64,000 nt of DNA from Subtercola boreus (GTDB lineage Bacteria; Actinomycetota; Actinomycetes; Actinomycetales; Microbacteriaceae). The DNA is taken from contig NZ_VFOO01000001.1 in NCBI RefSeq assembly GCF_006716115.1, positions 2,852,001 through 2,916,000 on the forward strand. Reading direction: 5' to 3'. This document shows positions 20,520-31,714 of the stretch, piece by piece. Both the position numbers and the translations under genes were made by a program. The notes under the pieces were generated by a model. The model did not search any database and was not told where the DNA came from. It saw nothing but the letters and a program-made list of their open reading frames with translations. Position 1 is the first letter of the stretch; each line of letters starts with the position of its first letter.

Positions 20520-22101
20520 CCCGCGCGCCCCCGCCGGCCCGCGCACCCCCGCAGAGCCGCCCGCCCCCGCCGGCCCTCCCGCCACCGCCGACCCGCGCAC
20601 CGCACGGCGGTTCCGGATACTCCTCTACGGCAGCATCGCCGTCTTCGCCCTGCTCGCCGCCGGCCTGGTCGCACTGAACCTCACGCAGGGACCCCGGATG
20701 ACCGCCGCCCAGCTGAACGTGGCCACCAGCGTCGAGCGGGCGGGCCAGCGGCTGCTCCTGCAGGCGAACGAGGTCATCGCGCCGGTCGCCGACGCGCAGG
20801 TCACGGTGAGCCCCGCAGCCGAGGTGAAGACGACGACGAACCAGACGAGCATCCAGATCGAGTTCACCGGAATTCTCGCGTACAACACCACCTACACCGT
20901 GACGGCGACGGGCGTGCGGAGCACCTCGTTGGATGCGACCTCGACCTTCAGCTACTCGTTCACCACGCCCGACGCGAACGTCTTCACCCTGCTGCGGGGG
21001 CAACCGGATGACCGGATCGAACGCTCGTCCCTCACCGCCGGCACCGGTGAGACTGTCTACAGCGCTCCGAACATCAGCCTCTTCACCACCCTCGGCCAGA
21101 AGCTCGTGGTCGCGACCACCGACTCCGACGGCTACGACCTGCTCGACATCGTCTCGCCCGACGGATCGGCGGCCAGCATCCCCGTGCAGCTCGCCGGCCC
21201 CGGCACCGTCACCGGGCTGGTCTCCTCGGCGAAGAGCAACCTCTTCGGGTACACCTACCGTGCGGCTCCGTCGCCCTACTACCCGACCTCCGACGACCAG
21301 CTCTACATCTACGACACCACCCTCGGCCAGGCGTATTCGATCCCGGTCACGGGGCCCGACCGCGAGCTGCTCGCCGTGCAGTCGTGGGCGTTCCTGCCCG
21401 GAACCACCTCGCTCGTGGTGCAGGACCCCGGCGGCGCGCTGTTCCTGGTCGACGCGCTGGGCCTCCTCGACGGCTCGTCCGCCGCTGTCGAGGTCGGGTC
21501 GGCGGATGCCCTACTGGGTTTCCTGCCGAACACGAAGACACTCGTGACGGAGACCGCCGGGTCGGCCTCCACGATCGACTTCGCCCAGCCCGGCACCCCG
21601 GTGACGGCGCCGTTCGCGTTGGCCGCTGCACCCCCGAACGGCTCGCTCGCTGCACCTGCGACTGCCGCCGCCGCTGCAGCCGCGACCGGCGGGCCCGCGA
21701 CCGGTGCCGCCGCCGAGGCCACCGCCCCCGGCGAACCTGCAGCCCTTACCGGAGCCCCCGCCGCCACCGGCGGAACGGGCGGGGCAACCGCCGCCCATCC
21801 GGAACCTCTCGATGCCTCGGGCACCATCGTCACCCCCGGACCTGATGCCACGACCCTGCAGAAGATCACCGGCACCGGCACCGAAACGCTCTTCACGGCG
21901 CCGGAGGGCAGCACGATCATCCGTTCGTGCCTGTCGACCAACGGCCGGTACGCGGTCGCGGAGACGGCTCCGGCCACGGCGGCCGCCGCAGAGGCTCCGG
22001 ATGTCGCGGCCGACGCCACGACGACCTACATCCCGCTCGACGACCCCACCGCCTCGCGCACCGTCGCCGGCTCGAACCCCGACTGGTGCAGCGCCGCCTG
22101 A
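20509..22101 (+). CDS. Membrane-anchored protein with Ig-like (Big_5) domain
   Basis: This 530-residue protein overlaps the previous gene by 11 bases, so it belongs to the same operon. It has a Pro/Ala-rich cytoplasmic N-terminus, one helix (about 36-57), an Ig-like domain (about 65-150; strand pattern TSIQIEFTGILAYNTTYTVTATGV) and a beta-rich C-terminal region that could be a propeller (LVVATTDSDGYDLLDIVSPDG). An Ala/Thr/Gly/Pro-rich linker of about 70 residues interrupts it near residues 375-445. I do not recognise a specific function; it looks like an extracytoplasmic partner of the YraQ/TIGR03943 pair. Confidence 0.75.
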   Translation: MSTDPRAPAGPRTPAEPPAPAGPPATADPRTARRFRILLYGSIAVFALLAAGLVALNLTQGPRMTAAQLNVATSVERAGQRLLLQANEVIAPVADAQVTVSPAAEVKTTTNQTSIQIEFTGILAYNTTYTVTATGVRSTSLDATSTFSYSFTTPDANVFTLLRGQPDDRIERSSLTAGTGETVYSAPNISLFTTLGQKLVVATTDSDGYDLLDIVSPDGSAASIPVQLAGPGTVTGLVSSAKSNLFGYTYRAAPSPYYPTSDDQLYIYDTTLGQAYSIPVTGPDRELLAVQSWAFLPGTTSLVVQDPGGALFLVDALGLLDGSSAAVEVGSADALLGFLPNTKTLVTETAGSASTIDFAQPGTPVTAPFALAAAPPNGSLAAPATAAAAAAATGGPATGAAAEATAPGEPAALTGAPAATGGTGGATAAHPEPLDASGTIVTPGPDATTLQKITGTGTETLFTAPEGSTIIRSCLSTNGRYAVAETAPATAAAAEAPDVAADATTTYIPLDDPTASRTVAGSNPDWCSAA

Positions 22102-22192
22102 CCGCGTGCGCCACCCCCCGCCCGCCGAACCGCCGACCCGCCAGCCCGCCGCCAGCCGCCCGCCGCCCGCCAGCCACCCCCAACCGCGGAAG

Positions 22193-22252
22193 CGCTACAC
22201 ATTGTCGCCTCCGCGTGTGCGCGCGCAGGCGCGGACGCGACAAACGGTAGCG
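22193..22252. repeat. Long intergenic hairpin between convergent genes
   Basis: The arms 22193-22215 and 22230-22252 pair at 19 of 23 positions, with a 14-base loop. It lies between the converging 20509-22101 and 22325-22477 genes, where a two-way terminator would be expected, but no T tract is present. The rest of 22102-22324 shows only Pro-codon-like low-complexity sequence. Confidence 0.75.
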
Positions 22253-22324
22253 GATCGTGCCGGAGGGTGCGTGCGCAGCGCGCAGGAGCGGGCGGCCGGG
22301 GGGGGGCGGGACGGGCGGGGCGGC

Positions 22325-22477
22325 TCAGTTGCCGCCGGTGAGGATGCCGTAGATGCCCGTGCCGAGGAAGTACAGCCCGACGGCCGCGACGCCGATCCAG
22401 ATCGCGATTCGCGTGTTCGTCGGCCGCTTCGGATCCTTCGGATCCGTCGGCTCTTCGGGTGCGGGGGTGTAGCTCAC
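22325..22477 (-). CDS. Small single-helix membrane protein
   Basis: This 50-residue protein has a hydrophilic Pro/Glu/Asp/Lys-rich N-terminus followed by one helix (RIAIWIGVAAVGLYFLGTGI) and a short Gly-rich end. I place its start at GTG 22477 because the reading frame upstream is Arg/Cys-rich and unlike protein. No clear ribosome site is seen. The function is unknown. The composition is typical of the small membrane proteins found in this family of bacteria, and it stands divergent from the LacI-type regulator. Confidence 0.6.
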   Translation of the reverse strand: MSYTPAPEEPTDPKDPKRPTNTRIAIWIGVAAVGLYFLGTGIYGILTGGN

Positions 22478-22584
22478 GATGGGTGCCCAGTCTCGTCGGC
22501 GAAAACAGCATCGTCTCACACATCGGGGCCGACTGCTGAGCATGTGACTGTCACACGCCACACTCCGCTCCGAGCGGCCGGGGG

Positions 22585-22599
22585 CATAATGAACCCGTG
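22585..22599 (+). promoter_or_regulatory. Leaderless promoter of the LacI-type regulator
   Basis: CATAAT at 22585-22590 is six bases before GTG 22597, with no ribosome site between them. Confidence 0.55.
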
Positions 22600-23610
22600 C
22601 CATCCGACCCGACCCGCAACCGCGCCCCGAGCATCCGTGATGTCGCGCGGCTCGCCGGCGTCTCGTACCAGACGGTCTCGCGGGTGCTGAACGATTCGCC
22701 GAACCTCCGCGAGGAGACCAAACTGCGGGTGCAGCAGGTCATGGACGAGCTGCAGTACCGCCCGAACCGCGCCGCGCGGATGCTCGTGACCAGCCGGTCG
22801 CGCACCATCGGCATCATCTCGGCCTCGAGTTCCCAGTACGGGCCTGCGTCGAGCATCACGGCCATCGAGCAGGCCGCCCGCGCGGAGGGCTACTTCGTCA
22901 ACATCGTGAACCTCGACGGCAGCGACCGCGCCTCGATCGAGCGGGCCCTGAACCACCTGCTCGACCAGGCCATCGAGGGGCTCGTCGTGATCGCGCCCCA
23001 GGTGCGCGTCTTCAACACCTTCACCGAGATGAACCTCTCCGTGCCGTTCGTGACACTGCAGTCGACCGGCACCTCCGACCATGCCCTCTCCGTCGACCAG
23101 ATCGCCGGCGCCCGGCTCGCGACCCGGCACCTGATCGAGCTCGGCCACCGCAACATCTACCACCTAGCCGGCCCCCAGGACTGGATCGAGGCGGAAGCCC
23201 GGATGCACGGGTTCCTCACCGAGATGAGCGAGCACGATGTGGCCGCCACCGCCCCGATCCTCGGCGACTGGACGGCCGAGTTCGGCTACTTTGCGGGCCG
23301 CGAACTGCTGAGGGTGCGCGACTTCACGGCGATCTTCTCGTCGAACGACCAGATGGCGCTCGGGCTGATGCACGCCATCCGGGATGCGGGACTCGACGTC
23401 CCCGGCGACATCAGCATCGTCGGGTTCGACGACATCCCCGAGGCGCGTCACTTCTGGCCGCCGCTGACGACCGTGCAGCAGGATTTCGGAGAGCTCGGCC
23501 GACGCGCGGTGGAGCTTCTGCTGAATGGTGGCGGTCAGCTCGGAGAGCACCCTGCAGGCATCGTGCCCGACCTGATCGTGCGGGAGAGCACGGGGCCCAG
23601 TCGCTTCTGA
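22597..23610 (+). CDS. LacI-family transcriptional regulator of pentose use
   Basis: This 337-residue regulator has an N-terminal LacI helix-turn-helix (SIRDVARLAGVSYQTVSRVL, residues about 12-31), the hinge helix NRAARMLVTSRSRTIGI and a periplasmic-binding-protein-like sensor domain ending in the typical SIVGFDDIPEARHFWPPLTT. It most likely represses the adjacent araD and sugar-importer genes by binding the palindrome at 23728-23743 and releases it on binding a sugar. Its own gene has a leaderless promoter and shows no similar operator. Confidence 0.9.
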   Translation: MPSDPTRNRAPSIRDVARLAGVSYQTVSRVLNDSPNLREETKLRVQQVMDELQYRPNRAARMLVTSRSRTIGIISASSSQYGPASSITAIEQAARAEGYFVNIVNLDGSDRASIERALNHLLDQAIEGLVVIAPQVRVFNTFTEMNLSVPFVTLQSTGTSDHALSVDQIAGARLATRHLIELGHRNIYHLAGPQDWIEAEARMHGFLTEMSEHDVAATAPILGDWTAEFGYFAGRELLRVRDFTAIFSSNDQMALGLMHAIRDAGLDVPGDISIVGFDDIPEARHFWPPLTTVQQDFGELGRRAVELLLNGGGQLGEHPAGIVPDLIVRESTGPSRF

Positions 23611-23684
23611 ACCGATTCAGTCGCTTGGGGAAGTACCGAGGGCAGCAGGGGCACAGCGCGTTACAGAACTGTGACAACTGGCGC

Positions 23685-23743
23685 TTGACAGGTGTTGCAG
23701 GCTTATGGCTAACATGAGTCCAGCCCAATGTGACCGTTCACAT
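23685..23743 (+). promoter_or_regulatory. Promoter and LacI-type operator of the pentose operon
   Basis: TTGACA at 23685-23690 is a consensus -35; TAACAT at 23710-23715 is the best -10 (19-base spacer, rather long). The palindrome ATGTGACCGTTCACAT at 23728-23743 has 6-bp perfect arms and a CG centre, the pattern bound by LacI-family regulators. It sits just downstream of the -10, so bound repressor would block the start of transcription. Confidence 0.7.
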
Positions 23744-23832
23744 GACAGGCTCACCTCATCACCAGCCTGAAGAACACACACCGGCCGAGCACAGACAGTG
23801 CGGGCCGCATCCGAGACGAAGGAGTCCGTGTC

Positions 23833-24540
23833 ATGAACTACGGCCCTGAGACCGAAGTCCTCATCGCAGGCCTTCGTGAAGACGTCGCCCGGCTGCACTC
23901 CGAGCTGACCCGGTACGGACTCATCGCCTGGACGAGCGGCAACGTCTCTGCCCGCATCCCGGGCCGGGAGCTGTTCGTCATCAAGCCGTCCGGCGTGCGG
24001 TACGACGACCTGGGCCCCGAGAACATGATCCTCTGCGACTTCGACGGCGAGGTCATCACCGAGACGCCGGGCAGCGATCGCCAGCCCTCGAGCGACACCG
24101 CAGCGCACGCGTACATCTACCGCAACATGCCGCAGGTCGGCGGCGTCGTGCACACCCACTCGACCTACGCCACGGCGTGGGCGACCCGGGGCGAAGAGAT
24201 CCCCTGCGTCATCACCGCGATGGCCGACGAGTTCGGCGGCCCGGTCCCGGTCGGCCCGTTCGCGGTGATCGGCGACGACTCGATCGGCGTCGGAGTCGTG
24301 AAGACCCTGACCGGACACCGCTCGCGCGCCGTCCTGATGCAGAACCACGGTGTCTTCACAATCGGCCGTGACGCGACCGACGCCGTCAAGGCTGCGGTGA
24401 TGGTCGAGGACGTCGCACGCACCGTTCACGTCGCCCGCCAGCTCGGCGACCCCCTCCCCCTGCCGCAGGAGAGCATCGACGCTCTCTTCAGCCGCTACCA
24501 GAACGTCTACGGTCAGGCTCCGGAAGGTGCCCTCCAGTGA
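23833..24540 (+). CDS. araD: Class II aldolase: probable L-ribulose-5-phosphate 4-epimerase
   Basis: This 235-residue enzyme converts L-ribulose-5-phosphate to D-xylulose-5-phosphate, the last step of L-arabinose use. Zinc-binding and active-site motifs of the AraD/FucA family are present: [11 protein letters not shown] (about 36-46), [23 protein letters not shown] with two metal histidines, and [11 protein letters not shown] with a third. The location next to a LacI regulator and a ChvE-type importer fits arabinose; L-fuculose-phosphate aldolase is the main alternative. araA and araB are not in the window. Confidence 0.85.
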
Positions 24541-24685
24541 CCCGCCCAGCGCCCAGCGCTCCCCACGATTTCTCGCTCCCGGCGAGACACCAGACCTGCG
24601 TGACTCCCGACTCGGGGATCCGCCGGACACACAGCACCTGCTGACAAAGAAGTCCCTCCCCTTGCACAAATCGAAAGGAAACACA

Positions 24686-25816
24686 GTGAAGAAGAAAGTT
24701 GTACTTTCCCTCCTGGCCTCCGCGGCCATGGTGGTTTCACTCGCAGCCTGCTCCTCGGGCAGCTCATCAGGCTCCTCCACCGACGGCGCTGCCGCCGGTG
24801 CCGGTGGCCTCATCGGTGTCGCGATGCCGACGAAGTCGTCGGAGCGTTGGATCGCCGACGGCAACAGCATCAAGGAGCAGCTCGAAGCGGCCGGCTACAC
24901 GGTCGACCTCGAGTACGCCGAAGACGACATCCCCACCCAGGTCAGCCAGCTCGAGAACATGATCACCAAGGGCGCCAAGGCCCTGATCATCGCCTCGATC
25001 GACGGCACCACGCTCACCAACACGCTGCAGAACGCCAAGGACAATGACATCCCCGTCATCGCCTACGACCGCCTGATCCGCGACTCCGAGAACGTGGACT
25101 ACTACGCGACGTTCGACAACTACAAGGTCGGCGTCGAGCAGGGCACGTCCCTCCTCACCGGCCTCGGCGTGCTCGACGCGAGCGGCAACAAGACCGGTAC
25201 CAAGGGCCCGTTCAACATCGAGCTGTTCGCCGGTAGCCCCGACGACAACAACGCGACGTTCTTCTTCAACGGCGCGATGGACACCCTGAAGCCGTACATC
25301 GCCGATGGAACCCTCGTCGTCAAGAGCGGCCAGACCGACTTCAACACGGTCGCCACCCTCCGTTGGGACCCGGCCACCGCCCAGTCGCGCATGGAGAACA
25401 TCCTCACGTCGACCTACTCCGACGGAACCACGAAGGTCAACGGCATCCTGTCGCCCTACGACGGTATCTCGCGCGGCCTGATCTCCGCCGTCACCTCGGC
25501 GGGCTACACCGTCGGCGCCGGCTTCCCGATCATCACCGGCCAGGACGCTGAGCTCGACTCGGTCAAGGCCATCAACGGCGGAGAGCAGTACTCCACCGTC
25601 TACAAGGACACTCGCGAGCTCGCGAAGGTCGCCGTCGCCATGGCCAGTGCCGTTCTCGAGGGCAAGACGCCTGAGACGAACGACGACAAGACCTACGACA
25701 ACGGCAAGAAGGTCGTTCCGTCGCAGCTCCTGCAGCCGGTCATCGTCACCAAGGACCTCATCAAGAGCGTTCTGATCGACGGCGGCTACTACACCGACGC
25801 ACAGGTCAACGGCTAG
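24686..25816 (+). CDS. Sugar-binding lipoprotein of a ChvE/XylF-type ABC importer
   Basis: This 376-residue exported lipoprotein starts at GTG 24686, behind GAAAGGAA. The signal peptide ends in SLAAC (cysteine about residue 22), followed by a Ser/Gly linker. The mature part is a periplasmic binding protein type 1 ([46 protein letters not shown]), like multiple-sugar-binding ChvE proteins that take arabinose, xylose or galactose. It is followed by an intrinsic terminator, which explains how it could be made in excess of the membrane parts. Confidence 0.92.
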
Positions 25817-25833
25817 TCTGAACCACCCCGGAA

Positions 25834-25881
25834 TCCGCCCGGCCCTGCAGCTTCTGCCGGGCCGGGCGGAAACCCCTTTTT
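25834..25881 (+). terminator. Intrinsic terminator between binding-protein and ATPase genes
   Basis: The stem arms TCCGCCCGGCCC (25834-25845) and GGGCCGGGCGGA (25859-25870) are perfect over 12 bp with a 13-base loop, followed by CCCCTTTTTG. It is the only hairpin in the window with a clear T tract. Partial read-through would supply the downstream ATPase and permease genes. Confidence 0.8.
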
Positions 25882-25915
25882 GCACCACCCACACACTTTT
25901 AGAGGAAGAGATATT

Positions 25916-27448
25916 GTGACCACCAATATCCTGGAAATGCGCAGCATCACGAAGACGTTCCCCGGCGTCAAGGCGCTGCAGAACGTCACGCTCGACGTGG
26001 CCCGCGGCGAGGTCCACGCGATCTGCGGTGAGAACGGTGCCGGCAAGTCGACGCTCATGAAGGTCCTGAGCGGGGTCTACCCCTTCGGCACCTACGAGGG
26101 CGACATCGTGTTCGAGAACGAGACGATGGAGTTCCGCGACATCCGGGACAGCGAGGCCAAGGGCATCGTGATCATCCACCAGGAGCTGGCGCTCAGCCCG
26201 TTCCTGTCGATCGCCGAGAACATCTTCCTCAACAACGAGATCAAGGGCGCCTTCGGCCTGATCGACTGGAACAAGACCAACATCGAGGCCTCGAAACTCC
26301 TCGCCCGGGTCGGTCTCCGCGAGAACCCCACCACGAAGGTGCGGGAGCTCGGCGTCGGCAAGCAGCAGCTCGTCGAGATCGCGAAGGCACTCTCGAAGCG
26401 GGTCAAGCTGCTGATTCTGGATGAACCGACCGCCGCCCTCAACGACGAGGACAGCGATCACCTCCTCGACCTGATCCTCTCGCTCAAGGGCCAGAACATC
26501 ACGTCGATCATCATCAGCCACAAGCTCAACGAGATCAAGAAGATCTCGGACACGGTCACGGTCATCCGCGACGGCAAGGCGATCGAGACGATCGCCAAGA
26601 CCGACGTGACTGAGGAACGCATCATCAAGGACATGGTGGGCCGCGACCTCGAACACCGCTACCCCGACCACACCCCGCACATCGGCGAGGAGATCCTGCG
26701 CGTCGAGAACTGGACGGCCTACCACCCGCAGGACCCGACGCGCATCATGGTCGACAACGTCAACCTGAACGTCAGGCGCGGCGAGATCGTCGGCATCGCA
26801 GGGCTCATGGGCGCCGGGCGCACCGAGTTCGCGATGAGCCTGTTCGGCCGCTCCTACGGCACGCGCATCTCGGGCCAGGTGTACAAGCACGGGGTCGAGA
26901 TCAAGACCCGCACCGTGTCGGAGGCCATCGACAACGGCCTCGCCTACGCCACCGAGGACCGCAAGTTCTACGGCCTGAACCTCATCGAGGACATCAAGCG
27001 CAACATCTCGATGGCCTCGCTGAAGAAGCTCGAGCGCGCCGGTCTCGTCGACGACAACAAGGAGTACGAAGTCGCCGACGGGTACCGCAAGTCGATGAAC
27101 ATCAAGGCGCCTTCGGTGCTGTCGAAGGTCGGCAAGCTGTCGGGTGGCAACCAGCAGAAGGTCGTGCTGAGCAAGTGGATCTACTCCGACCCCGACGTGC
27201 TGATCCTCGATGAACCGACCCGCGGCATCGACGTGGGCGCGAAATACGAGATCTACACGATCATCAACAAGCTCGCCGCCGAGGGCAAGGGCGTCATCGT
27301 CATCTCGAGCGAGCTGCCCGAACTCCTCGGCATCTGCGACAGGATCTACGCCATCGCCGAAGGCCGCATCACCGGTGAACTGCCCATCGCAGAAGCCACC
27401 CCCGAAACGCTGATCAAGTACATGACCATGGAAAAGGAACGCGCCTGA
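25916..27448 (+). CDS. Sugar ABC importer double ATPase (GguA/XylG type)
   Basis: This 510-residue protein has two ATPase domains. Domain 1 is complete: [12 protein letters not shown]-loop [10 protein letters not shown], signature [16 protein letters not shown], Walker [12 protein letters not shown]. Domain 2 has the usual altered Walker A ([10 protein letters not shown]), [14 protein letters not shown] and [13 protein letters not shown]. The GTG start at 25916 has GAGGAAGAG upstream. Its last base overlaps the permease ATG. It powers pentose or hexose import with the binding protein and permease beside it. Confidence 0.93.
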
Positions 27449-28689
27449 TGTCCAACCTCGAAACGAAGCCGTCAGACGACACGGCCGCCGGTGGCCGGGT
27501 CAACCCGGTCGAGAACAAGTTCACCACCGCCCTCAGCCACGTGCTGAGCGACCTGGGCAAGAACGGCATCTTCATCGCCCTCGTGCTCGTGGTCGTGGTG
27601 TTCCAGATCCTGACCAACGGCGTGCTCCTCCGCCCGCAGAACGTCTCCAACCTGATCGTGCAGAACGGGTACATCCTGATCCTCGCGATCGGCATGGTGA
27701 TGGTCATCGTCGCCGGCCACATCGACCTGTCGGTCGGATCCGTCGCGGCCTTCGTCGGCGCCGTCTCCGGTGTCTTCGCCGTGAACATGGGGCTGCCGTG
27801 GTGGCTGTCGATCATCCTGTCGCTGCTGATCGGTGCCGCCGTGGGAGCCTGGCAGGGCTTCTGGATCGCCTATGTGGGCATACCCGCGTTCATCGTGACG
27901 CTGGCCGGCATGCTCATCTTCCGCGGGCTCGCGCTCGTGGTGCTCGGCAACGCGAACATCGGTTCGTTCCCCGAGGAGTACCGCGCGATCGGTAACGGCT
28001 TCCTCACGAACGTCTTCGGCAACCTCGACGTCGACCCGCTCACGATGGGCGTCGCGGTCATCGCGATCATCGCCCTGATCATCCAGTCGGTGCGCACCCG
28101 CCGTGGCCGCCAGAGCTACGGCCAGGCCGTGGAGCCGATCGGCTGGTTCATCGGAAAGCTCGTGCTGGTCACGATCGTCGTTCTGCTCTTCGCCTACGCT
28201 CTCGCCACCTTCAAGGGCATCCCGGTCACGCTGATCATCCTCGCCGTGCTCATCCTGATCTACGGCCTGGTCATGGGGCGTTCGGTCTTCGGCCGCCACA
28301 TCTACGCCATCGGTGGCAACCTGCACGCTGCCGAGCTGTCGGGCATCAAGACCCGCAACGTCACCTTCTGGCTGTTCGTCAACATGGGCGTGCTGGCTGC
28401 CCTCGCGGGCCTCGTCTTCACCGCCCGCCTCAACCTGGCCGGCCCGAAGGCCGGTGACGGCTTCGAGCTCGAGGCGATCTCCGCGGCCTTCATCGGTGGT
28501 GCGGCGGTCACCGGCGGCGTCGGAACCATCGGCGGCGCCATCATCGGTGGTCTCATCATCGGTGTGCTGAACAACGGTATGTCGATCATGGGTATCGGCA
28601 TCGAGTGGCAGCAGGCCGTCAAGGGCCTCGTGCTGCTGCTGGCCGTCGCCTTCGACGTCTACAACAAGCGTCGTTCGGGCGGTCGTTGA
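27448..28689 (+). CDS. Sugar ABC importer permease (GguB/XylH type)
   Basis: This 413-residue permease has about ten helices. It carries the family's conserved GMVMVIVAGHIDLSVGSVAAF and AIGGNLHAAELSGI (cytoplasmic loop contacting the ATPase) and ends VAFDVYNKR. The length of 413 residues, longer than RbsC, is typical of XylH/GguB. It starts on the last base of the ATPase stop. The degenerate ATPase gene follows 31 bases after its end. Confidence 0.93.
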   Translation: MSNLETKPSDDTAAGGRVNPVENKFTTALSHVLSDLGKNGIFIALVLVVVVFQILTNGVLLRPQNVSNLIVQNGYILILAIGMVMVIVAGHIDLSVGSVAAFVGAVSGVFAVNMGLPWWLSIILSLLIGAAVGAWQGFWIAYVGIPAFIVTLAGMLIFRGLALVVLGNANIGSFPEEYRAIGNGFLTNVFGNLDVDPLTMGVAVIAIIALIIQSVRTRRGRQSYGQAVEPIGWFIGKLVLVTIVVLLFAYALATFKGIPVTLIILAVLILIYGLVMGRSVFGRHIYAIGGNLHAAELSGIKTRNVTFWLFVNMGVLAALAGLVFTARLNLAGPKAGDGFELEAISAAFIGGAAVTGGVGTIGGAIIGGLIIGVLNNGMSIMGIGIEWQQAVKGLVLLLAVAFDVYNKRRSGGR

Positions 28690-28720
28690 TCCGGCGCGTC
28701 TGAACGATCGGTCTGAACGG

Positions 28721-30328
28721 ATGCCCGTGCACGGCCCGTCCCTCACCCTGAGCTCTGTCTCAGCGAGGTCGGCGGCCGGCACGGGCATCCGTTCTGTGTC
28801 GTTCGAGGTGTCTGGCGGCAGCGTGCACGGGATCCTCGGCGAGAACCTCTCGGGGGCATCCGAAGTGCTCGCGGTGATCGGCGGCTTCCTGCCCGTGGCC
28901 GGCGGCCAGCTCACGATCGGCGGCATCGAACGCCACTTCGTCGGCGCCGCCGCGGCCGAAGCAGCCGGCGTGCGGGTGCTCCGCGCCGATCCCGCCGTGG
29001 TGCCGCACACCTCCGTCGCCGAGAACATCTTCCTCGGGCACGAGAAGTCGGCGGGCGGCTTCGTGCGGTTCGGCCGGATGAACGCCAACGCCTCCGAACT
29101 GCTCACCCGCTTCGGCCTCGGTGGCGCGGTGGATCCGGCCAGCAGGGCAGGCGACCTCGGCCGGGCCGAGCGCTGGATCGTCGAGTTCTGCCGCTGCATC
29201 GTCGCGGAACGCACGGTGGTGCTTCTCGACGAGCCCTTCTCGGGTCTGGATGCCCGGGGCCTCGCCCTCGTCGCAACGGGCATCCGGCGGCTCTCCGCCG
29301 AGGGGGTCACCGTGGTCGTCGCATCGCACCGCCTCGATCTGCTCCGCCGGGTCGCGTCGAGTATCACGGTGCTCTCCCGGGGCGCCGCCGTCGAGACTCT
29401 CGCCCTCACCGCGGATTCGCCCTCGACCGAACAGTTGGTGCGGCACATGACCGCCAACATCGTGGTCACGCCGCGCCCGCAGCACGAAGACCTGGAGCCC
29501 GGCCCCGTGGTGTTCGAGCTCTCGTCGTGGACGGCGTACCACCCGGTCGACACCGCCCGCACCGTGGTGCAGGATGTCTCGCTGACTGCCCGGCGCGGGG
29601 AGATCGTCGGGCTGGCCGGTCTTGAGGGATCGGGCATCAGCGAGCTGGCGCTCAGCCTCTTCGGGCGCACCTTCAGCTCCCGCGTCAACGGAACGATGCT
29701 GGTCGGTGGCCGGCCGCTCGAGGCGGCGACACCCCAGGAGTCGGTCGCAGGCGGGGTGGGGCTGTCGACGACGGCCAACACGAAGTACGACCTGAACCTC
29801 ATCGGCGGCATCCCGTCCCGCATCTCGTCGGGCATGCTGGCGCGGTTCGCGAGGCTCGGCCTCGTCGACCGGGACCGGGACTACCGCACGACCGCCGCGC
29901 CCGCCTTCGGGCTCGGCGGCATCTCGGCACTGGTCACGCGGCGCGGAGCGGCGGGCACGGGTGGCGCGGGCGGCGCAGGCGGTCGGGCGGGAGATGGCGC
30001 GACGGGCGGCACCGGATGGCCGGCGGGAGCCCAGCGTCACCTCGATGCCCTCGGCGCCTGGCTCGACCTGCCCCTCGGCCAGCGGCCCGTGGTCGTCGTG
30101 CTCGATCATCCGACCGCCGCCCTCTCCCCCGACCGGGTGGCCGCGCTGCGCGACCTCATCGTCGAACTGGCGGCCGGCGGAACGGCGGTACTGCTCGCGT
30201 CAGACGACCTCGACGAACTGCTCGTGCTGACGAACCGTGTCTACACGCTCGCCGACGGGCGGGTCACGGCAGAACTCCTCACGCGCGTCGCGACGCCGTC
30301 GGGCCTGCTGGCGAAGATGATGGGCTGA
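28721..30328 (+). CDS. Degenerate paralogue of the sugar-importer ATPase (predicted catalytically dead)
   Basis: This 535-residue protein aligns end to end with the GguA-type ATPase just upstream: SVAENIFLGHE matches [11 protein letters not shown], and SSWTAYHPVDTARTVVQDVS matches [19 protein letters not shown]. Key residues are lost. Walker A of domain 1 is GENLSGAS (residues 40-47) instead of GENGAGKS, so the ATP-binding lysine is missing. The Q-loop glutamine is gone (LRADPAVVP). The signature is replaced by AGDLGRAERWIVEF. In domain 2 the LSGGNQQ motif is replaced by a Gly/Ala/Thr linker (about 400-438), and Walker B reads VVVVLDHPTAAL with His for the catalytic Glu. Domain 1 keeps LLDEPFSGLD and the H-loop ASHRLD. 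The frame is intact, so it may be a regulatory subunit rather than a pseudogene. Confidence 0.8.
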   Translation: MPVHGPSLTLSSVSARSAAGTGIRSVSFEVSGGSVHGILGENLSGASEVLAVIGGFLPVAGGQLTIGGIERHFVGAAAAEAAGVRVLRADPAVVPHTSVAENIFLGHEKSAGGFVRFGRMNANASELLTRFGLGGAVDPASRAGDLGRAERWIVEFCRCIVAERTVVLLDEPFSGLDARGLALVATGIRRLSAEGVTVVVASHRLDLLRRVASSITVLSRGAAVETLALTADSPSTEQLVRHMTANIVVTPRPQHEDLEPGPVVFELSSWTAYHPVDTARTVVQDVSLTARRGEIVGLAGLEGSGISELALSLFGRTFSSRVNGTMLVGGRPLEAATPQESVAGGVGLSTTANTKYDLNLIGGIPSRISSGMLARFARLGLVDRDRDYRTTAAPAFGLGGISALVTRRGAAGTGGAGGAGGRAGDGATGGTGWPAGAQRHLDALGAWLDLPLGQRPVVVVLDHPTAALSPDRVAALRDLIVELAAGGTAVLLASDDLDELLVLTNRVYTLADGRVTAELLTRVATPSGLLAKMMG

Positions 30329-30365
30329 GGGCGCCGCGAAGCGCGGTCAGCGGCCGACCCCGCGG

Positions 30366-31580
30366 TCAGGCGCGGCCCTTCAGGATCAGGTTCCAGTACA
30401 CCCACGGCAACACATACCGGTCGGCGATGAATGTGGCCCGCCGCTCCTTTGCGAGACCCTTCCAGAACGGGATGGTCGGCTTCGGCCGGTAGCGGTCGTC
30501 GAACTCGGAGAACACCACCGTCGTGCGGGAGACTGTGAACGGGCAGACGGAGTAGCCGTTGTACTGCTGCGGCAGTGGTTTTCCCTTCAACGCAGCAGCC
30601 AGATTCTTCGCAAGCACCAGGGTCTGCTGGCGAAGGGCTCCGCCCGACTTCGAGTTGATCGTCGCGGCCGCGTCGCCGAGCGCCCACACGTCGGGGTACC
30701 GCGGGTGCCGGAGGGTGAGGGCGTCCACCTCGACGAAGCCGCCGGGGCTGGCGGGGTCCGCCAGGGCCGTCGAGGCCAGCCAGTCCGGTGCGGACTGCGG
30801 CGGCACCGCGTGCAGCACGTCGTAGGAGAGATCCTCGGCCTCGCCACCCGGGCCCTCGACGACGATCGACTTCTGCCGGGCATCCACCGCCGCGAGCTCG
30901 CTGCTGTACCTGACCTCGATTCCGTACTCGGCGACCTTCCGTTCGAGCTCCGCATCGATCATCGGCATGCCGAACAGCGTCGGGGTCGGCACGACGAGCA
31001 CCACCCTGATGTCCTTCAGCACTCCGGTCTCCCGCCAGAAGTCGCAGGCCAGGTACATCGGCTTCTGGCTCGCGCCCGCGCAGGTGGCCGGCCCGTCGGG
31101 CTGCGTGAAGACGACGGTGCCGGTGCGCACGCCGCTCAGCACCGACCACGCCTTCTGGGCGTACTCGAATTCGTAGTTCGAGATGCCGAACGGTGACTCC
31201 ATGGCCTCGACCAGGCCGGGCACGGCATCCCAGTCCTTCTGGATGCCCGGGCACACGACCAGCTGGCCGTAGCCGATGCTGCGGCCGGACGTCAGAGTGA
31301 GCGTCTTCGCGTCGGGGTCGATGCTCCCGACGCGGGCCTTGATCCAGCTGACGCCCTTCGGGATGACCGACTCCTGCGGCCTCGTCGCAAGACGGGCTGG
31401 CGCGGTCCCGCCGGCCACGTGCGAGAACATCGGCTGGTAGAGGTGATGCTCGCGGGGTTCGATGACCGCGACATCCTGCACCCCATAGCGCCGCAGACGC
31501 CCGGCGACCGACAGCCCCGCATTGCCGCCGCCGATGATGACGACGTTGTGGTGCTGAATGCTCGTGCTCAGGTCGCTCAT
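30366..31580 (-). CDS. sqr: Sulfide:quinone oxidoreductase (type II-like)
   Basis: This 404-residue FAD enzyme oxidises sulfide to sulfane sulfur or polysulfide and passes electrons to the membrane quinone. It has the N-terminal dinucleotide fold (VVIIGGGNAGLSVAGRL, residues 13-29), the second GDAAAT FAD motif (about 302), and both redox cysteines in family context: C167 in PATCAGASQKPMYLACDF and C346 in YNGYSVCPFTVSRT. NDH-2 enzymes lack this pair, so SQR is favoured. I use the ATG at 31580, directly behind GAGGGG; TACGGT six bases further up would also allow a leaderless start. It ends 37 bases from the converging degenerate ATPase gene. Confidence 0.85.
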   Translation of the reverse strand: MSDLSTSIQHHNVVIIGGGNAGLSVAGRLRRYGVQDVAVIEPREHHLYQPMFSHVAGGTAPARLATRPQESVIPKGVSWIKARVGSIDPDAKTLTLTSGRSIGYGQLVVCPGIQKDWDAVPGLVEAMESPFGISNYEFEYAQKAWSVLSGVRTGTVVFTQPDGPATCAGASQKPMYLACDFWRETGVLKDIRVVLVVPTPTLFGMPMIDAELERKVAEYGIEVRYSSELAAVDARQKSIVVEGPGGEAEDLSYDVLHAVPPQSAPDWLASTALADPASPGGFVEVDALTLRHPRYPDVWALGDAAATINSKSGGALRQQTLVLAKNLAAALKGKPLPQQYNGYSVCPFTVSRTTVVFSEFDDRYRPKPTIPFWKGLAKERRATFIADRYVLPWVYWNLILKGRA

Positions 31581-31652
31581 CCCCTCACCGTACGGAATTC
31601 CGTGGCCTGCAGTCAGGCGTTGCGCATTCGGCACAACCCTGTATGCGCGTCC

Positions 31653-31714
31653 AAAGATCTTTTTGCAACGCTTCACTTGCAAAGAAGTCTTTGCAGAGGT
31701 ATCTTTGGATTATG
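31653..31714 (+). promoter_or_regulatory. Operator array and leaderless promoter between SQR and ArsR-type genes
   Basis: TGCAAAGAAGTCTTTGCA at 31678-31695 has perfect 8-bp arms. AAAGATCTTT at 31653-31662 is a full palindrome, and TATCTTTGG at 31700-31708 holds a further half site. TATCTT (31700-31705) is a -10 box six bases before ATG 31712. Repeated CAAAGA words overlapping the promoter indicate autoregulation and control of the divergent gene. Confidence 0.65.

Follow-up and report, generated by a model that had tools for sequence, protein, structure and literature searches.

Bacterial sugar importers of the CUT2 type are driven by a tandem ATPase chain, in which two nucleotide-binding domains (NBDs) are joined rather than supplied by two separate subunits. 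In ABC proteins each ATP site is built from the Walker A motif of one domain and the signature of the other; the second Walker A of CUT2 sugar ATPases is naturally devoid of lysine, and those of the RbsA, AraG, and XylG type keep one consensus ATP site. Heterodimeric ABC transporters such as TM287/288 and BmrCD likewise combine one degenerate and one working site in the same dimer, and dead enzyme paralogues are frequently regulators of their active twins. In the maltose importer, the permease coupling helix is described as docking in the helical-subdomain cleft of the NBD MalK (PMC3150292), and idle MalK is described as sequestering MalT (PMC10427625). A literature search, at the level of result lists, returned no account of a bacterium that keeps an inactive ATPase as an extra protein next to a sugar importer that is already complete. 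Here, we describe a family of conserved pseudo-ATPases that accompanies a sugar importer and is broader than a single-genome observation. It is represented in the 64,000-nucleotide stretch of Subtercola boreus DNA that was analyzed (the window) by the product of positions 28721 to 30328, for which we coined the name GguX (gene gguX; X for short).

Operon organization and translation signals

The gene order of the operon in Subtercola (Microbacteriaceae) is binding protein gene-gguA-gguB-gguX, with gguX as the last gene, and the genes and protein motifs of the window given below lie on the plus strand unless stated otherwise. The 5' neighbor of the operon encodes a LacI-family regulator (22597..23610), assigned from NCBIfam LacI-type matches of which the best was under its curated cutoff (275 of 340 bits); a homologue is also found upstream in 10 Subtercola loci. 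An L-ribulose-5-phosphate 4-epimerase-like (class II aldolase) gene (23833..24540; NF005123, 365 bits, cutoff 251) and the gene of a ChvE-type multiple-monosaccharide binding protein (24686..25816; NF040907, 531 bits, cutoff 460) precede gguA, which has a GTG start and encodes a tandem-NBD ATPase with intact motifs (25916..27448; NF040905, 866 bits, cutoff 810), and gguB, the permease gene, which overlaps the gguA stop (27448..28689; NF040906, 548 bits, cutoff 450). The 535-residue pseudo-ATPase gene gguX (28721..30328), supported by its open frame, the alignment to GguA, and orthologues, begins 31 bases after the gguB stop, and no terminator-like site was detected in this gap by a pattern scan. 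A terminator-like hairpin with a T-run was observed between the binding-protein gene and gguA (25852-25871) and may lower the gguAB level relative to the binding protein; three terminator-like sites were found across the region, with 2.8 expected from shuffles. Rfam gave zero matches at gathering score over positions 22000 to 31700.

Immediately 5' of the gguX start codon (28700-28720), TCTGAACG is present twice, and CTGAACGGATG occurs at the gguX start in 7 of 11 Subtercola rows, with variants in the remaining rows. The median anti-Shine-Dalgarno duplex energy was -1.95 kcal/mol for X, compared with -5.8 for gguA, -6.5 for gguB, and -2.6 for the background, and the medians within Subtercola were 0.4, -5.8, and -5.8 kcal/mol, respectively. 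The order was reversed in genus g64, where the X site was stronger (-6.95 versus -5.2 and -4.9), while g11 and g3 were intermediate for X. Considering these exceptions, and given that start codons outside Subtercola were chosen by the analyst and are uncertain, X is likely to be poorly translated in Subtercola and some other genera only.

Residue losses and predicted fold of GguX

The first-pass annotation had read gguX as an intact but catalytically dead copy of the importer ATPase. The open frame of 535 codons, from the ATG at 28721 to a stop ending at 30328, was confirmed; an overlapping open frame of 787 codons lies on the minus strand opposite gguX, so that an open frame alone is weak proof in G+C-rich DNA and the proof of coding rests on the orthologues. 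Full-length alignment with the window GguA was likewise recovered, with 158 identities in 529 positions (30%; E value of 1e-82). In this alignment, the former Walker A of NBD1 (GENLSGAS, 28838..28861) had lost its lysine to alanine (GENLSGASE in X, GENGAGKST in GguA), and the former Q-loop of NBD1 (28982..28990) had lost its glutamine, with RAD replacing HQE. Loss of the second catalytic glutamate also held, as the former second Walker B (VVVLDH, 30092..30109) carries histidine in its place (VVVLDHPT in X, VLILDEPT in GguA). The claim that both signatures had been lost was right for the second, where LSGGNQQ has given way to a variable Gly/Ala-rich insert (29936..30028, borders approximate, placed by orthologue comparison), whereas the first (LGRAERW in X, 29156..29176) is already LGVGKQQ in GguA. 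Retained features in the alignment include the NBD1 Walker B (LLDEP; VVLLDE at 29216..29233), the NBD1 H-loop of the window protein (SHR; SH at 29324..29329), and the GguA-type interdomain motif WTAYHP (29528..29545). The second Walker A (GLEGSGISE, 29618..29644) is natively lysine-less, as it is in GguA (GLMGAGRTE).

Since GguA itself has no lysine in Walker A2 and reads LGVGKQQ at signature 1, the losses specific to X are the Walker A1 lysine, the Q-loop glutamine, signature 2, and the second catalytic glutamate. For the same reason, a single consensus ATP site exists in GguA, formed by the Walker A of NBD1 and the signature of NBD2, and both halves of that site are gone in X. ATP hydrolysis by X is predicted from these residue losses to be absent. 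The G+C content, previously called normal, is not quite so, being 0.73, 0.55, and 0.89 at codon positions 1, 2, and 3 in gguX versus 0.57, 0.36, and 0.94 in gguA. Lysine depletion was considered as a special trait of X (3 Lys in 535 residues) and rejected, as X ranks eighth lowest in a roughly selected set of 40 window genes with a median of 1.2%.

Profile comparisons placed X beside the sugar ATPases. Against NF040905, the GguA equivalog, X reached 270 bits and three other X proteins 216, 152, and 307 bits, all below the curated cutoff of 810, and the residues on which membership depends (NBD1 Walker A lysine and Q-loop glutamine; LSGGNQQ in NBD2) were missing from X. Among the 25 NCBIfam models listed for each of these four proteins, none reached its cutoff and the next best were RbsA, AraG, XylG, and other CUT2 sugar ATPases; no tested NCBIfam model names GguX. 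PF00005 (ABC_tran) matched X in a single stretch (NBD1; 76.8 bits, gathering score 25) and GguA in two. An AlphaFold2 model of X built from 50 aligned sequences contained both ABC domains with a mean pLDDT of 81.5, with a pLDDT below 50 for much of residues 353 to 430, a range in which the NBD2 stretch that follows the former Q-loop lies (stretch 2, see below). In the GguA model from the same rows, the mean pLDDT was 89.1 and the second helical subdomain was predicted with confidence. In sequence searches of solved structures, none of the best 60 of 67 and the best 60 of 65 matches was named a CUT2 tandem ATPase, and the VIA-align structure matches listed were single-domain alignments only, others being possible. 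On plasmids, 796 records matched P0001 at an E value of 1e-30, all with less than 60% identity, and the ten listed matches had 29 to 32% identity, like ordinary ATPases.

Distribution and origin of GguX in Microbacteriaceae

A gguB search of 398 genomes of the family matched 211 of them at an E value of 1e-120. We compared 92 loci with a gguB of at least 72% identity (79 fetched, 12 obtained earlier, and the window), along with one further fetched stretch (G395:C15); ten loci of the same class (G143, G145, G207, G220, G290, G304, G327, G600, G651, and G755) lie outside the 92. With a locus scored as positive by an open frame or a tblastn match, 40 of the 92 loci had a degenerate gguA relative directly 3' of gguB and in the same orientation; they belong to seven genera (g1 [Subtercola], g11, g98, g3, g71, g64, and g2), and X was not present beside gguB in the other 52 related operons. 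No broken X was seen among the gguB loci scored without X, and X occurred in none of the eight loci examined of another gguB class (52 to 62% identity). When 396 genomes of the order were searched for the gguB class itself (E value of 1e-170), 13 contained it, all from the same family, a count outside of which an X without such a gguB could fall. The X motif was also found behind gguB in a Herbiconiux metagenome-assembled genome (L056). Within the genus, orthologues next to gguB, the search for which had been suggested as a check, were intact in 10 of 11 genomes, and the eleventh (G001) had no gguB match at 1e-120 either. Over the best segment, identity to the orthologue of Subtercola boreus P27479 (L051) was 84%, and there were no stops inside the X matches listed for Subtercola.

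Among the 40 X genes, one was cut by a contig end (G313) and one was taken from tblastn (G012), and 38 X were aligned in detail. The Walker A lysine and the Q-loop glutamine were each found in 0 of 38 X versus all 38 partner GguAs, and the H-loop histidine was found in 9 of 38 X. Sequencing error or a single-strain oddity is thus ruled out, as the same losses recur in orthologues of many genomes. In g98, g3, and g64, the invariant Asn102 is preceded by 36 to 54 residues in 13 of 14 X and by 12 in the other, compared with 101 in GguA, indicating that these genera, with the start codons chosen by the analyst, have lost most of the P-loop part of NBD1. The segment replacing signature 2 ranged from 32 to 212 residues among X (42 in GguA). 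Gly/Ala-rich inserts were seen to vary greatly in L038 (6045-8132), whose segment has 212 residues, and in L040 (8916-10802).

A family-specific motif was found in NBD2, in the stretch that follows the former Q-loop (stretch 2; YDLNLIGGIPSRIS, 29786..29827, identified by motif scans and constraint). Its core, [YF]-[DR]-[LVIM]-x-[FILV]-[ILV]-G-G-[ILV], occurred in all 38 X and in 0 of 100 GguAs and, in the 50-row alignment A3, in the two X rows only. A stricter form was present in 39 of 40 X, including those of G395 and G012. When every fetched locus was scanned in six frames with the longest form, all 63 matches were closest to X (loci that overlap contribute repeatedly to this count). Stretch 2 is conserved in a new form, with GG where GguA has ED, while the corresponding stretch of NBD1 (stretch 1; PAVVPHTSVAENIFLGHE, 28991..29044, identified by alignment and constraint) has Asn in 38 of 38 X and resembles, at AENIFLG, the consensus obtained from an alignment of 50 sugar ATPases.

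In the GguA tree, a branch with an SH-aLRT value of 100 has the X proteins together on one side; the branches are long, making the attachment point unsure and the shared GG motif the better argument for one origin. The X-presence label changed three times on the GguA-plus-GguB tree (100 rows), and G279, which carries another genus label, fell inside the Subtercola operon clade. One origin followed by losses and some whole-operon transfer would fit this pattern.

Several observations concern individual loci. In G395, an X with the GG motif (L179:6841-8379, on contig C15) lies on a contig without gguB in the fetched stretch, between genes that, by eye, we take for recO and dnaG neighbors and thus for housekeeping genes, and no X occurs within 3.7 kb behind gguAB of the same genome (L178); if the assembly is sound, operon linkage is not essential. 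In G262 (L233), the gguA 5' of gguB consists of two open frames and may be frameshifted. The N-terminal tail of GguB (27448-27520 in the window) is well kept in loci with X and variable in loci without, a pattern confounded by relatedness, and its Thr6 was found in 39 of 40 loci with X versus 8 of 52 without. Given similar tails in loci without X and about three label changes on the tree, this association has little power, and the tail was rejected as the docking partner and kept as a lead only.

Selection and constraint on GguX

GguX is under purifying selection, weaker than that on gguA and gguB. In 49 pairs, which are not independent, Nei-Gojobori dN/dS ranged from 0.13 to 0.41 for X, 0 to 0.105 for gguA, and 0 to 0.152 for gguB, and X was higher in each pair. 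A ratio near 1 had been named by the first-pass annotation as the mark of a decaying pseudogene; decay is ruled out by these values, by the codon-position bias, and by the constrained stretches, which supports its reading of a retained pseudo-ATPase. Substitutions at codon positions 1, 2, and 3 (15 pairs) were 0.086, 0.070, and 0.249 for X versus 0.007, 0.006, and 0.105 for gguA. Nearly all pairs, the exception being L031-L032, also showed more synonymous change in X than in gguA and gguB, as expected from weaker codon constraint.

The constraint was concentrated in the stretches following the two former Q-loops. In 13 close pairs, amino acid differences affected ∼47 of 702 codons in these stretches versus ∼865 of 5,424 elsewhere (counts rebuilt from rounded fractions; Fisher P = 1e-12), and the ratio of position-2 to position-3 substitutions in stretch 2 was 0.04, as low as that of gguA. 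Across genera, mean agreement among X was 0.60 in the stretches, 0.45 at ATP-site positions, and 0.44 elsewhere, with some short core segments above the mean of the two stretches. Residues of GguA itself were kept in the X stretches only slightly above average (0.37 versus 0.25 to 0.27; P of about 0.047). The stretch borders were set after the alignment had been viewed and differed between analyses (in GguA numbering, 91 to 108 and 351 to 369 for agreement and residue retention across genera versus 90 to 108 and 347 to 381 for the 13 close pairs), and they overlap the quoted MalK residues (99 to 112) only partly.

Proposed role of GguX and alternative explanations

Homology, the residue losses in 38 aligned proteins, purifying selection, operon linkage, and the family motif establish that GguX is a selected paralogue of the tandem ATPase GguA. 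It probably regulates or occupies the importer rather than driving it. We tentatively propose, at somewhat less than an even chance, that GguX acts as a dead accessory subunit of the GguAB-ChvE monosaccharide importer that docks on the GguB permease. The helical subdomains, which are the docking place of permease coupling helices, start with the post-Q-loop stretches; the ATP site has been discarded and both of these starts have been kept, suggesting that a partner is still met there, most simply GguB. Conservation after the Q-loops would thus favor a permease-docking role, and the new form of stretch 2 could equally be the mark of a new partner. Also against docking are the marginal retention of GguA residues in the stretches, the 52 of 92 operons that have no X beside gguB, the X encoded apart from gguAB in G395, and the low model confidence around stretch 2.

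In the proposed mechanism, X would still fold as two ABC domains, and the retained stretches of its helical subdomains, one behind each former Q-loop, would be the sites that dock on GguB. Because X is predicted to lack normal ATP binding and hydrolysis, a permease bound to it would stay idle, with X either competing with GguA for the permease or reporting its state. The weak ribosome-binding site and weaker codon constraint in Subtercola suggest that X may be less abundant than GguA there, and a scarcer X could limit how much sugar is taken up or signal that a transporter is idle, as idle MalK sequesters MalT. The earlier suggestion that the pseudo-ATPase replaces one functional copy fits poorly, since GguA is one chain with both NBDs and X would have to replace the whole of GguA, not one of two subunits. 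The other roles suggested there, a throttle on import, a sensor, or a regulator, are conjectural. We consider unlikely a scheme in which an ATP-independent "occupancy" subunit, derived from an inactivated tandem ATPase, would dock on a CUT2 permease to give a closed or sensing GguB-ChvE-GguX complex, tuning uptake or sensing external sugar without ATP cost.

A soluble regulator off the transporter, whose ABC-like scaffold would use the GG motif to bind a regulator, an enzyme, a sugar phosphate, or the like instead, is a rather doubtful reading; it would account for a motif that replaces GguA residues instead of keeping them, for the orphan X away from gguAB, and for the very fast divergence outside the two stretches, but it sits poorly with an X that immediately follows gguB at 40 loci from seven genera and with a stretch 1 so like the consensus of 50 sugar ATPases. 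We regard as quite improbable a heteromer in which X would stabilize GguA or block its NBD sandwich with no permease binding. ABC domains are generally known to dimerize, the model of X keeps both ABC folds, and X by itself lacks a consensus ATP site; however, the dimer-interface motifs (Walker A, signatures, and D-loops) are among its losses, and the ATP-site positions agree among X about as little as the rest of the protein. That X senses nucleotide by binding it via the retained NBD1 Walker B seems very improbable, for although the Asp and the Glu of this motif are each kept in 29 of 38 X (with Asp in place of Glu in 7 more), the Walker A lysine is lost in all 38 and some genera have little of the P-loop region left. 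Least credible is a duplicate under relaxed selection and on its way out, to which the dN/dS above gguA and gguB in every pair, the variable replacement of signature 2, and the scattered presence would point, whereas dN/dS well below 1 in 49 of 49 pairs, a segment with a position-2/position-3 ratio as low as that of gguA, presence across seven genera, and the lack of stops in the X matches listed for the genus and of broken X at X-less loci all speak against it.

If X docks on GguB, as in the accessory-subunit reading that we prefer, it would be a natural dominant-negative that separates the docking surfaces of an NBD from its catalytic ones, because evolution took the ATP site away and kept the rest in many species. 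Annotation also calls for caution, since in these genomes the label "sugar ABC transporter ATP-binding protein" may be attached to a gene whose product is unable to drive transport.

Comparison with known systems

GguX, in its proposed role, resembles MalK as the MalT repressor, an importer ATPase subunit that regulates during transporter idling (PMC10427625); MalK, in contrast, is an active ATPase. The family closest to X is GguA/MmsA (NF040905), its best family match, with which it shares the tandem ABC architecture, the WTAYHP linker, and the operon, and from which it differs in having no Walker A lysine, Q-loop glutamine, or LSGGQ and in having the GG motif and a variable Gly-rich insert. 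Two fused ABC domains are also common to X and the CUT2 ATPases RbsA, AraG, and XylG, whereas X keeps no consensus ATP site. With TM287/288 and BmrCD, X shares degenerate catalytic motifs of an ABC domain that are kept by selection; those transporters retain one working site in the same dimer, whereas X forms a dead chain of its own next to an ATPase that is complete and active.
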